Assembly: GCA_016235815.1 (NCBI GenBank)
Contig: JACRIM010000058.1
Span: 62,001 to 126,000, forward strand
Origin: Planctomycetota bacterium
GTDB lineage: Bacteria > Planctomycetota > Phycisphaerae > UBA1845 > UTPLA1
Reading direction: 5' to 3'
DNA: 64,000 nt
Shown in pieces: positions 7,016-44,275 of the stretch (the first letter of the stretch is position 1; every line of letters starts with the position of its first letter). The position numbers and the translations under genes were made by a program. The notes beneath the pieces were generated by a model. It was given only the letters and a program-made list of their open reading frames with translations, was not told the DNA's origin and did no database searches.

Positions 7016-10000
7016 GTGAACCACCCTTTCCTCAAACTCATGCAGCAGCGGGTCATCGTGCAGGACGGCGCGATGGGTACCTCCATCTATTCCCACGATC
7101 TGACCATCGACAAGGACTATCGCGGCTGCGAGAACTGTACCGATATTGTCACCGATACCCGGCCCGAGATCATCGAGGAGATTCACGCGTCGTTCTATCG
7201 CGTCGGCTGCGATGCCGTCGAGACCAACACCTTCGGGGCGAACAAGATCGTCCTCGCCGAGTTCAACCTCGCCGACGAGACGTATGAGTTGAATCTCAAA
7301 TCGGCCCAAATCGCCTGCCGAGCGCGCGACAAATTCACCACGCCTGCCCAGCCCCGATTCGTCATCGGCTCCATGGGGCCGGGTACAAAATTGCCGACGC
7401 TGGGACATACGACCTTCGACGTGCTCGAAGACAGTTACGCCGAACAGGCTCGCGGCCTGCTCGATGGCGGCGTTGATGCACTCTCGATCGAGACCTGCCA
7501 GGATATCTTGCAGGCCAAGGCTGCGATCTGCGGCGCATCGTTGGCGATGCGCGAGAAGGGACGGCAAGTCCCGATCATCGCCCAAGTCACCATCGAAGTC
7601 ACCGGCTCCATGCTGGTCGGCTCAGACATCGCCGCCGCCCTCACAGTGCTGGAATCCTTCCCGCAGGTGCAAGTCATCGGGATGAACTGCGCCACCGGCC
7701 CGCAGGAAATGTCCGAACACATTCGCTACCTCGGCCGCACGAGCACGCGGCTGATTAGCTGCGTCCCGAACGCGGGCCTGCCTCAGCTCGTTGACGGAAA
7801 GCCGCATTACGCACTGACGCCCGACGAGCTTGCCAAGTGGCTGCGAGAATTCGTGGTCGAGGACGGCGTCAACATGGTCGGCGGTTGCTGCGGCACCACG
7901 CCCGCACATCTGGCGGCCGTCGTGGATGCGGTGAAGGGTGTGAAGGCGAAGGTGCGCGTGCCACAGCGGCAGGCATCCGTCGCCAGCATTTATCAAAGCA
8001 CTCCGCTCCGACAGGACAACAGCTTTCTCATCGTCGGCGAACGCACAAACACCAACGGCAGCAAGAAGTTCCGCGAATTGATGCTCGACGGCGATATCGA
8101 TGGTCTCGTGGAGATGGGCCGCGAACAGGTCCGCGAGGGGGCGCACGTCCTCGATGTCTGCGTCGATTACGTCGGCCGCGATGGTGTGCCGGATATGGAC
8201 GCCGTGGTCACGCGATTCGTGAAAGATGTCACGGTCCCGCTCATGCTCGACTCGACCGAGGCCCCGGTGATTGAGGCCGGCCTTAAGCGGGCGGGCGGTA
8301 AGTGCATCGTCAACTCGGTGAACCTCGAAGACGGCGAGCACAAGCTCGACGTCATTTGCCCAATGCTCCGCAAGTACGGCGCGGCAGTGGTCGCGCTGAC
8401 CATCGACGAAGACCCCATCGAGGCGATGGGCAAAACGGCGGCACGCAAACTTGAGATCGCAACGCGTCTGCACGATCTGTTAACGAAGAAACACGGCATC
8501 CTCGCCGAAGATATTCTCTTCGACTGCCTCACGTTTCCGATCAGCACCGGTACCGAGTCCGACCGGCGACTGGGCCTCGAAACGCTCGACGGCATCGAGC
8601 AAATCATGAAGGCGTTCCCGACCTGCGGGTCGATCCTTGGTGTGTCCAACGTCAGCTTCGGACTCGCCCCCGCGGCGCGGGCCGTGCTGAACAGCGTGTT
8701 CTTGCACGAGGCGACCCAACGCGGACTCACCGCGGCCATTGTCCACGCCAGCAAGATTCTTCCGCGCAACAAGATCAGCGATGAGCGATGGGATACCGCG
8801 CTCGACCTGATTTACGACCGCCGACGCGAAGGCTACGACCCGCTACAGGCGTTCATAAAACTTTTCTCTGACGGGGAAACCGTTGGCGAAAAGAAAGTGC
8901 GCACCGACATGCCCGTCGAGGAGCGGCTAAAGCAACGCATCATCGACGGCGACCGCACCGGCATCGACGTTGACCTCAAGGAAGCGATGGCCAGGCACCC
9001 GCCGCTGGACATCATCAACAATTTCCTGCTCGACGGCATGAAGGTTGTCGGCGAGTTGTTCGGCGCGGGCAAAATGCAGCTTCCGTTCGTCCTTTCATCG
9101 GCCGAGACGATGAAGGCGGCGGTGGCCTGGCTTGAGCCGTTTATGGAAAAGGTCGCCGGACCGGCAAAAGGCACGATTATTCTCGCTACGGTCAAGGGCG
9201 ACGTTCACGACATCGGCAAGAACCTCGTAGACATCATTCTCAGCAACAACGGCTTCAAGGTGCACAACCTCGGCATCAAGCAGCCGATCGCGAACGTCAT
9301 CGATGCCTTCGAGAAGCACGGCGCAAACGCCATTGGGTTATCCGGCCTGCTTGTCAAATCCACGCTGGTCATGCGCGACGACTTGGTCGTTCTCAATGAA
9401 CGGGAACTCGCCATGCCCGTCATCCTCGGAGGCGCCGCATTAACGCGAAGCTACGTCGAGAATGATCTGCGATCAATCTACAAAGGCCCGCTTGCCTATG
9501 CGACCGACGCATTCGAAGGCTTGGCCCTCATGAAACGCCTGTCCGAGGGCAAGCCGCTCGTCGACAGTTCGAAACCCAGGGCGCCCGCGCGAAAAGCAGC
9601 GCAAACGTCTGTGTCGCCCATGGGTGACATTCCGACTCGCAGCGACATCCGCACTGATAACCCGATCCCCACACCGCCCTTCTGGGGCTCGCGGGTCATC
9701 GAGCGGATCGACATGCAGACGATCCTGCCGTACATCAATGAGAAGATGCTCTTTGGCGTGCAGTGGGAGTACAAACGCGGCGATAAATCGAAGGAAGAGC
9801 ACGAGGCTTTCATCCGCGACGAAGTCCGACCGATCTTCCATGAATTGGCCAAGCGATGCGCCAAGGAGAAGATTCTCCTGCCGCAGGCGGTGTATGGCTA
9901 CTGGCCGTGCAACAGCGACGGTGACGATCTAGTCATTTACGACCCCGCCTGTGGCACCGGTTTCCAACCGGTGGCTTCGCGCAAGGAAATCGCCCGGTTC

Positions 10001-10537
10001 ACGTTTCCGCGGCAGCACGAGCAGCCCTACTGGTGCCTTTCCGATTTCTACCGGCCCGTGGAGTCCGGCGAACTCGACGTCGTCGCCTTCCACCTCGTCA
10101 CCGTCGGCCGCGCCGCCAGCGACGTGGCCCGACAGTGGTTCGAGCAGAACCTCTTCCGCGACTACCTGCACCTCCACGGCCTCGGCGTCGAATCGGCGGA
10201 AGCCCTCGCTGAATACATGCATAAGCAGATTCGGATGGAGTTGGGCATCTCCGGCAAAGACGCCCGCGACATCACGCGTCTCTTCCAACAGGGCTATCAG
10301 GGCAGCCGATTCAGCTTCGGATACCCAGCCTGCCCCAATCTGGAGGATCAGGAGAAACTCTGGCCACTCCTGAAGCCCGACCGCATCGGCGTCACGCTCA
10401 GCGAGGAATACCAACTCGACCCTGAGCAAAGCACCAGCGCGATCGTTACTCACCATCCCGATGCGCGGTACTTCAACGTGCGCGAAATGAAAACGGATCC
10501 GCAGCTTGCCGAGCGCCTGGGCGAAGCGTCGGCCTAA
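7016..10537 (+). CDS. metH: Cobalamin-dependent methionine synthase
   Basis: This 1173-aa modular enzyme transfers the methyl group of methyltetrahydrofolate through cobalamin to homocysteine. Domains in order: homocysteine-binding (about 1-300) with zinc ligands Cys225, Cys291 and Cys292; pterin-binding (about 330-590, starting LIVGERTNTNGSKKF); cobalamin cap and B12 domain, with DVHDIG giving Asp729 and the cobalt ligand His731; and the AdoMet reactivation domain (about 900-1173). In the last domain the peptide CGTGFQPV (979-986) is encoded by a palindromic repeat inserted in frame. The start is GTG 7016, preceded by AGGCAGGA. No cobalamin riboswitch was recognised in the short spacer upstream. 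Confidence 0.96.
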   Translation: MNHPFLKLMQQRVIVQDGAMGTSIYSHDLTIDKDYRGCENCTDIVTDTRPEIIEEIHASFYRVGCDAVETNTFGANKIVLAEFNLADETYELNLKSAQIACRARDKFTTPAQPRFVIGSMGPGTKLPTLGHTTFDVLEDSYAEQARGLLDGGVDALSIETCQDILQAKAAICGASLAMREKGRQVPIIAQVTIEVTGSMLVGSDIAAALTVLESFPQVQVIGMNCATGPQEMSEHIRYLGRTSTRLISCVPNAGLPQLVDGKPHYALTPDELAKWLREFVVEDGVNMVGGCCGTTPAHLAAVVDAVKGVKAKVRVPQRQASVASIYQSTPLRQDNSFLIVGERTNTNGSKKFRELMLDGDIDGLVEMGREQVREGAHVLDVCVDYVGRDGVPDMDAVVTRFVKDVTVPLMLDSTEAPVIEAGLKRAGGKCIVNSVNLEDGEHKLDVICPMLRKYGAAVVALTIDEDPIEAMGKTAARKLEIATRLHDLLTKKHGILAEDILFDCLTFPISTGTESDRRLGLETLDGIEQIMKAFPTCGSILGVSNVSFGLAPAARAVLNSVFLHEATQRGLTAAIVHASKILPRNKISDERWDTALDLIYDRRREGYDPLQAFIKLFSDGETVGEKKVRTDMPVEERLKQRIIDGDRTGIDVDLKEAMARHPPLDIINNFLLDGMKVVGELFGAGKMQLPFVLSSAETMKAAVAWLEPFMEKVAGPAKGTIILATVKGDVHDIGKNLVDIILSNNGFKVHNLGIKQPIANVIDAFEKHGANAIGLSGLLVKSTLVMRDDLVVLNERELAMPVILGGAALTRSYVENDLRSIYKGPLAYATDAFEGLALMKRLSEGKPLVDSSKPRAPARKAAQTSVSPMGDIPTRSDIRTDNPIPTPPFWGSRVIERIDMQTILPYINEKMLFGVQWEYKRGDKSKEEHEAFIRDEVRPIFHELAKRCAKEKILLPQAVYGYWPCNSDGDDLVIYDPACGTGFQPVASRKEIARFTFPRQHEQPYWCLSDFYRPVESGELDVVAFHLVTVGRAASDVARQWFEQNLFRDYLHLHGLGVESAEALAEYMHKQIRMELGISGKDARDITRLFQQGYQGSRFSFGYPACPNLEDQEKLWPLLKPDRIGVTLSEEYQLDPEQSTSAIVTHHPDARYFNVREMKTDPQLAERLGEASA
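9950..9974. repeat. Palindromic interspersed repeat inside metH
   Basis: The core CACCGGTTTCCAACCGGTG (9955-9973) is a perfect 8-bp inverted repeat around a 3-base loop. The same word, slightly diverged, occurs at 44224 and 44251 between genes. Here it is read in frame and adds about ten residues to the AdoMet domain, between VIYDP and RKEIARF, which are adjacent in most MetH proteins (family knowledge). Confidence 0.8.
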
Positions 10538-43619: not shown

Positions 43620-44222
43620 ATGCCCGATCTCGACCGCATCGCCAAACTCCGTTCTCTCGCCGAGGCTGACCCCTCCGACGAGATGGCCCATTTTTCCCTC
43701 GGCCAGGCCCTCATGGACGCCGGCCAGCACAAGGACGCCGGGCCTTCGCTGCAGCGCGTCATCGCCCTCAACAGCCAGAACTCCAAGGCCTATCAACTCC
43801 TCGGCGAAGTTCAGAAGGCCACCGGCCATGCCGACCTCGCCATTCAGACGCTGACCAACGGCTACCGCATCGCCCACCGAAAGGGCGACCTCATGCCGAT
43901 GAAAGCCATGGGAGAGCTGTTGCAATCACTCAACGCTCCCATCCCCGAGATTGCTGAAAAGAAGGAAGCCCCCGCAGGCGGTGTCCCCGGCGAAGCGGGT
44001 TTCTCCTGCCGACGCTGCAGCGGCCCCGGGCCGAAGTTGGCGGAACGGCCCTTCAAAGGCCCCCTCGGCGAGAAGATCCTCGCCACCGTCTGCGCCCAAT
44101 GCTGGAAGGAATGGGTCGGCATGGGTACCAAGGTCATCAATGAACTCCGCCTCCCCATGTTCGACCCCGCCGCGCAGGAGCAGTATGACAAGCACATGAA
44201 AGACTTCCTCCTGCTCGACTAA
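43620..44222 (+). CDS. TPR protein with C-terminal Fe(II)-trafficking (YggX-like) domain
   Basis: A 200-aa cytosolic protein. Residues 1-90 are two or three TPR units (FSLGQALMDAGQHKDAGPSL; AYQLLGEVQKATGHADLAIQ). The C-terminal about 75 residues resemble the Iron_traffic/YggX family: LGEKILATVCAQCWKEWVGM, TKVINELRL and HMKDFL, where YggX has similar LGxxI, WxxW and INExxL words. Two CxxC pairs (CRRC, CAQC) are present, as if a metal were bound; YggX itself has only a single Cys. The family protects Fe-S clusters from oxidative damage in E. coli; that role here is inferred. It follows fbaB in an apparent operon. Confidence 0.75.
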   Translation: MPDLDRIAKLRSLAEADPSDEMAHFSLGQALMDAGQHKDAGPSLQRVIALNSQNSKAYQLLGEVQKATGHADLAIQTLTNGYRIAHRKGDLMPMKAMGELLQSLNAPIPEIAEKKEAPAGGVPGEAGFSCRRCSGPGPKLAERPFKGPLGEKILATVCAQCWKEWVGMGTKVINELRLPMFDPAAQEQYDKHMKDFLLLD

Positions 44223-44223
44223 G

Positions 44224-44275
44224 TGTGGCACCGGTTTCCAAACGGTGAGCTGTGGCACAGGTTTCCAACTTGTGA
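44224..44275. repeat. Two tandem copies of the palindromic TGTGGCAC repeat
   Basis: Copies begin at 44224 and 44251, each reading TGTGGCAC(C/A)GGTTTCCAA then (A/C)(C/T)GGTGA or TTGTGA. The hairpin arms are CACCGGTTT/AAACGGTG and CACAGGTT/AACTTGTG. They are relatives of the copy inside metH at 9950. They occupy most of the spacer between the iron-trafficking-like gene and pepF and have a downstream reading frame that can falsely extend pepF. Confidence 0.82.

Follow-up and report, generated by a model that had tools for sequence, protein, structure and literature searches.

A short palindrome read in frame within a full-length metH gene raises two questions, namely what kind of element it is and what could have put it there. 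In the window, i.e., the whole stretch of DNA analyzed here (64,000 nt), the cobalamin-dependent methionine synthase MetH is encoded at positions 7016–10537 on the forward strand. Its open reading frame scored 1310.7 bits against TIGR02082 (cut-off 1010.85) and carries the Pfam domains S-methyl_trans, Pterin_bind, B12-binding_2, B12-binding and Met_synt_B12. The palindromic unit, TGTGGCACCGGTTTCCAACCGGTG, occupies positions 9950–9973 (+); the 5' tag TGTGG begins the full unit at 9950, and the core CACCGGTTTCCAACCGGTG is an exact match at 9955–9973, with a stem of 8 bp and a loop of 3 nt. The frame reads the unit as C-G-T-G-F-Q-P-V at approximately residue 979, where the activation domain (Met_synt_B12, residues 900–1161) has a loop of variable length, confirming the in-frame peptide described by the first-pass annotation. 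The intergenic site named there was recovered as well: a dimer at 44224–44274, directly after the TAA of the ORF 43620–44222, with its first unit at 44224–44247 (+), just 3' of the stop codon, and its second at 44251–44274 (+; CACAGG..., second arm degenerate).

metH was present in all 17 genomes of the family, and the loop was read in each of them. CGTGFQPV was found in the loop of the studied genome only (1/17), which rules it out as a conserved MetH peptide. Between fixed anchors, the loop spans 14 to 35 residues in 13 measured rows (22 in the studied genome), and it is longer than this range in G012. Judging from this comparison, the palindrome sits in a tolerant loop, because loop length differs among the relatives anyway. 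Of the insertion of about ten residues that had been suggested for metH, the confinement of the peptide to this genome within the family holds; a clean insertion is not provable, since loop length is variable, and addition to the loop cannot be told apart from replacement of part of it.

The repeat is far more frequent than expected. Four matches with ≤3 mismatches were found in the window against 0.05 expected, one of the four being the same palindrome counted on the other strand, and none of 100 shuffled windows contained as many. In the genome to which the window belongs, that of a Phycisphaerae-like bacterium (G000, 4.58 Mb, 60 contigs), 138 places matched at ≤3 mismatches and a reversed control pattern matched none, in agreement with the interspersed palindrome postulated earlier. 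The shuffles and the genome-wide count rule out a chance repeat. Two weak single matches to the 24-mer (≤4 substitutions), at ~5973 and ~13432 of the window, are either degenerate copies or chance.

At least 126 copies, with ≤4 substitutions relative to the 24-mer and the tag end placed 5', were gathered from loci fetched around the places in the studied genome. Positions 1–4 (TGTG) are near-invariant among 126 copies, and the loop is variable at position 15. Each stem pair is paired in 110–125 of the 126 copies; pair 9–21 is C-G in 74, A-T in 29, T-A in 9 and G-C in 4 (116/126 paired), and this compensating change indicates that the hairpin itself is conserved. Some units are single, whereas others form dimers, in which the second unit often starts with TGTA, or arrays with a period of ~27–31 bp. 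The metH palindrome thus belongs to a family of short, high-copy imperfect palindromes with a conserved end tag, i.e., REPs, and the anatomy of the family is that of REP/BIME. REPs are understood as short non-autonomous elements copied by a RAYT (REP-associated tyrosine transposase; HUH, Y1). The likeness to Rickettsia palindromic elements (RPEs) drawn by the first-pass annotation is retained in part: the repeat behaves as an RPE-type in-gene repeat, lying in frame in protein genes and causing no stop, but its 24-bp unit, TGTGG tag and dimers are nearer to REP/BIME. RPEs are longer than the 24-bp REP; unlike them, the unit seen here doubles as the terminus of a transposase element, and we know of no whole-element embedding among RPEs. 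GTAG REPs are described in the available text of PMC3733652; since the tag TGTGG is neither GTAG nor CGTC, the family was not placed in the super-families of that paper.

A coding-frame preference is seen among the coding copies, in which the frames CGTGFQPV and HRLETGAT prevail, yet most copies lie outside genes: 10 of the 54 REP clusters of the genome passed the coding test, a heuristic that uses a codon model and may count one palindrome on both strands. None of the six frames of the unit or of the dimer contains a stop codon, which holds for 1.4% of base-shuffled dimers.

A candidate source of the REPs was found within another gene of the same genome. Among its ten Y1_Tnp matches, this REP bounds one only, as inverted dimers (locus L049, 2234–2283 on the plus and 2809–2859 on the minus strand), and it is absent from the retrieved surroundings of the remaining nine. 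The enclosed gene is a RAYT between inverted cognate REPs, as in a REPtron, and it lies inside purH: a single frame of 793 aa contains the two PurH halves on either side of the RAYT (PRK00881, 589.5 bits). The RAYT matches REP_Tyr_transpos (NF047646) with an E value of 4.8e-21 and 75.2 bits, just below the cut-off of 80, and shows the characteristic motifs, HUH (PDHVHLLM) and the Tyr helix EKWEYMEANPVTA. It had no match among 50,697 phage records, and the RAYT alone had none in a PDB sequence search.

A second such fusion was found in alaS, a frame of 1236 aa with a RAYT in frame (Pfam tRNA-synt_2c, tRNA_SAD, DHHA1 and Y1_Tnp). This RAYT is only distantly related to that of purH and has a different REP, GAGCCGCGACCGTNAGGGAGCGG, at its ends (L046, G000:C34:7000–13000; C34:9785–10357); the repeat occurs at 63 places in the genome, with none for the control. 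A search of the genome for purH and for alaS returned a single match each, so that no copy other than the fused genes was seen. In G037, two different RAYTs are carried in frame by alaS (L140, G037:C11, 277–5337), whose frame spans 1686 aa.

Across the order (114 genomes), 64 embedded RAYTs were found in 63 genes, several of them cut on one side by contig ends. Their host genes are generally regarded as essential. Type A comprises 38 RAYTs (purH 18, ileS 10, gcvP 3, leuS 2, MmeI-like methylase 2, N6/N4 methylase 2, rarA 1) and type B 26 (alaS 13, purH 7, valS 4, leuS 1, MmeI-like 1), hosts being assigned by family models for a subset and by phmmer to PurH/AlaS or sequence reading for the others; the host of L281 was assigned solely by likeness to L277, and L254, L255 and L288–L290 have no host assignment. 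L246, in which a RAYT lies upstream of MutS in one frame, was counted as neither embedded nor free. By a reading of its motif table, type B resembles class 3 of the TnpA_Y1 classes given in the available text of PMC6006769. When matches within the order are ranked by similarity to the purH RAYT, the first 37 (E ≤ 1.1e-25) are all situated in open frames of 481–1647 aa; a frame as short as that of a free-standing RAYT first appears below them. Five more frames were recognized by eye outside the order (valS in two, leuS, alaS and methylase), where free-standing close relatives also occur; embedding is therefore not universal.

purH carries an in-frame RAYT in 25 of the 114 genomes (PurH C part found in 102), and two unrelated types, A and B, occupy the same linker. 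Among the 31 named loci with both anchors, of 80 fetched, the linker measures 14–60 aa in 22 and 243–547 aa in nine, and all nine carry a RAYT. In one of the 26 purH RAYTs, that of G029 (L285/L188, G029:C141), the RAYT is out of frame relative to the PurH N part, through either a true mutation or an assembly error. Frames without a RAYT were those of purH at L134 and L137 (long) and at L138 and L139 (normal), and of alaS at L145–L159.

Next, RAYT trees were compared with the host genes. On the maximum-likelihood tree of type A (43 rows), the host-gene label changes 10 times (minimum 10, shuffled mean 23.1), and on that of type B (34 rows) 8 times (minimum 7, shuffled mean 18.9); with so few changes, the RAYT lineages are gene-specific. 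RAYT and host distances did not correlate significantly for type-A purH (Spearman 0.15, n = 14), ileS (−0.10, n = 9) and alaS (0.26, n = 11); for type-B purH the coefficient was 0.47 (n = 7), with 30 of 2000 permutations as high. Presence of the RAYT on the PurH tree (61 named loci, 14 occupied, including the frame-broken G029) requires 12 changes against a shuffled mean of 12.8, although the resolution of this tree is poor (4 of 58 branches starred). The distances may be saturated. Gene-specific lineages, patchy presence and mostly weak host congruence are, by analogy, an intein-like lifestyle, with type-B purH as the correlating case. Such a pattern resembles gene-specific horizontal spread accompanied by loss; as an alternative, the lineages may have descended vertically from deep ancestors, being lost many times and having distances that are saturated.

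Between G010 and G011, two members of the same genus, dN/dS was 0.154 for the type-B purH RAYT, 0.113 for the PurH C part and 0.324 for the N part, so in the one pair tested, of type B, the embedded purH RAYT is under purifying selection; the 3' REP linker gave 1.9 (small sample). Of the 60 embedded RAYTs that were scored (12 rows unscored), 4 have an ATG in the 30 aa that precede the RAYT core, compared with ~44% expected from the average Met frequency; this count covers ATG only, with GTG and TTG starts possible, and repeat-derived linkers are Met-poor anyway. AlphaFold modeling of the L168 fusion from MAG OFTM174 (771 aa, 35 rows) yielded a mean pLDDT of 81.6 and a pTM of 0.66, with the PurH halves and the RAYT ordered and the linkers 278–303 and 437–499 disordered. 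The model matched the folds of PurH (4a1o, E 4e-47) and of a RAYT–REP hairpin complex (4er8, E 9.6e-6), and it shows the RAYT as a tethered domain in the PurH linker.

The REP and the purH RAYT also tend to occur together. In a census of 114 genomes (≤2 mismatches, both strands), at least 20 REP copies were present in 11 of the 18 genomes whose purH carries a type-A RAYT, versus 8 of the other 96 (Fisher p 2e-6, the cut-off of ≥20 having been picked after the counts were seen). In G046, which belongs to another family, the identical REP sequence lies at both ends of the purH RAYT. The association has exceptions on both sides. Seven of the 18 carriers (G020, G094, G025, G037, G038, G034 and G044) have 0–4 REP copies, several of them showing visibly different flanking repeats. 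Conversely, G002, G004, G033, G065, G090, G099, G100 and G101 have at least 20 copies without a type-A purH RAYT (in G090 purH itself was not found), with either orphan REPs or a lost RAYT in G002, G004, G099, G100 and G101. REPs can therefore outlive or lack a close RAYT.

Considering these data, we propose, with a probability of about 0.72, that the metH palindrome is a REP copied by the RAYT embedded in purH, which is translated within PurH and spreads in a gene-specific, intein-like but splicing-free manner. PurH would be produced with a transposase domain tethered in its linker, and this domain may copy or move REPs in trans via the hairpins TGTGGCACCGG, the metH REP being one of its putative satellites. 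Since the REP is open in all six frames, the ends alone (metH) or the whole element (purH) would be translatable. The tolerant loop of an indispensable enzyme may shield the RAYT from loss, because only a precise in-frame loss would be survivable, and its lineages may spread by re-insertion or allelic transfer, as we read from lineages that are confined to one gene, patchy and mostly host-incongruent. This proposal draws its direct support from the sequences, the frames, the cognate REP ends, the gene-specificity, the purifying selection in one pair and the predicted fold; from these we infer the activity in trans, the order of events, the mode of spread and enzymes that work with the domain in place.

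Other explanations account for parts of the data. Embedded RAYTs could be domesticated enzyme parts that serve the host in regulation, interaction or DNA processing, rather than selfish elements: the RAYT domain is under purifying selection like PurH, the HUH and Tyr motifs are kept in most rows, and TnpA_REP is termed domesticated in the available text of PMC8266576. We nevertheless consider domestication unlikely, given a distribution on the PurH tree as scattered as that of random labels, one linker held by two unrelated RAYT types, many unrelated host genes and RAYTs that have REP satellites of their own. Similarly doubtful is that the metH REP was moved by another RAYT, free or lost, with the purH RAYT as a dead passenger. 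The eight REP-rich genomes without a type-A purH RAYT speak for this, and the metH REP could be old; against it, the purH match alone among the ten Y1_Tnp matches of the genome has these REP ends, the RAYT motifs are kept, and purifying selection acts on the RAYT codons of the single tested pair (type B).

The length of the inserts, up to ~550 aa in the purH linker, and their position in essential enzymes might also suggest that they are removed before the enzyme works, by a self-splicing intron, an intein or ribosomal bypassing. Pfam scans of the fused frames detected host and Y1_Tnp domains only, without the Hint domain of inteins, and no Rfam family was found at five loci with fused genes, which rules out a known intron or other RNA family as the insert there. 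The inserts preserve length and frame as ordinary translation would require, RAYT codon change is mostly synonymous, and both PurH halves are intact in the modeled fold, so that removal appears very improbable. Least probable, to the point of being nearly negligible, is an artifact of assembly or binning, or chance open frames in GC-rich DNA. Most of the genomes are probably MAGs, the sources being largely metagenome assemblies and the named relatives MAGs of Phycisphaerae/Planctomycetota, and some long frames (L088, L089 and L090) were dropped as they looked like spurious or antisense extensions beside ordinary RAYTs. Against an artifact, host domains flank the RAYT within a single frame across many genomes and families, among them G010 and G011, which are one contig each and whose orthologous insert evolves as coding sequence.

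Copying of the metH REP by the purH-embedded RAYT remains our preferred reading. At slightly better than even odds, we further suggest that it represents a splicing-free, intein-like class of transposons, in which whole RAYTs reside as domains in indispensable enzymes, use the start codon of the host gene, spread between species in a gene-specific manner and leave REP satellites, that of metH included. As in REP/REPtron systems with a RAYT, the palindromes are short and tagged, form dimers and arrays, lie inverted at the ends of an HUH/Tyr transposase gene and are in some cases in frame in genes; unlike in those systems, the tag is TGTGG, and the RAYT is in frame inside essential enzymes and rarely has a nearby ATG of its own. 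With inteins and homing elements they share in-frame insertion at favored sites of conserved housekeeping enzymes, gene-specificity, patchy distribution and weak host congruence. In contrast to inteins, the RAYT has no splicing domain and would persist as a transposase domain tethered within the enzyme, leaving non-autonomous REP satellites elsewhere.

RAYTs, REPs and in-frame REPs are known; the available text of PMC3733652 already reports REPs in frame in genes, tRNA synthetase genes included. Apparently new, in the literature searched, are whole RAYTs inside essential enzymes: none of the reports found there describes a host gene with a complete RAYT in its frame, supplements and subscription papers being outside the scope of the search. 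In its available text, the survey of PMC6006769 states that excessively long proteins were discarded as fusions or errors of annotation, and the available text of PMC10632474, a paper on essential genes, does not name the host genes of embedded RAYTs. If the proposal is correct, a transposase can escape deletion by being translated as part of an enzyme that the cell cannot lose, and a source is given for REPs in genes such as metH. For aminoacyl-tRNA synthetases and PurH, the fusions would also serve as natural experiments in domain insertion, and the question of how RAYTs persist, as selfish or as domesticated elements, becomes testable.

REP-coded peptides were also observed outside metH, and the first two examples below belong to the clusters that passed the coding test. 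At ~C21:127812 (L302, G000:C21:125600–128900), a REP of this family lies in frame between flanks, NIAQVYDAG-THRSETGAT-VHYFAMEYVP, that resemble a Ser/Thr protein kinase, as read from the sequence by eye. A tandem array of 13 units with a 30-bp period is found at C23:89927–90310 (L008, G000:C23), where a coding-like frame contains RLETGATRGD repeats. Finally, the PurH linkers of L128 (G038), L132 (G044) and L084 (G016) contain long REP-coded tandem peptides, e.g., DHRRDACATSGEEG or SEGRGS.
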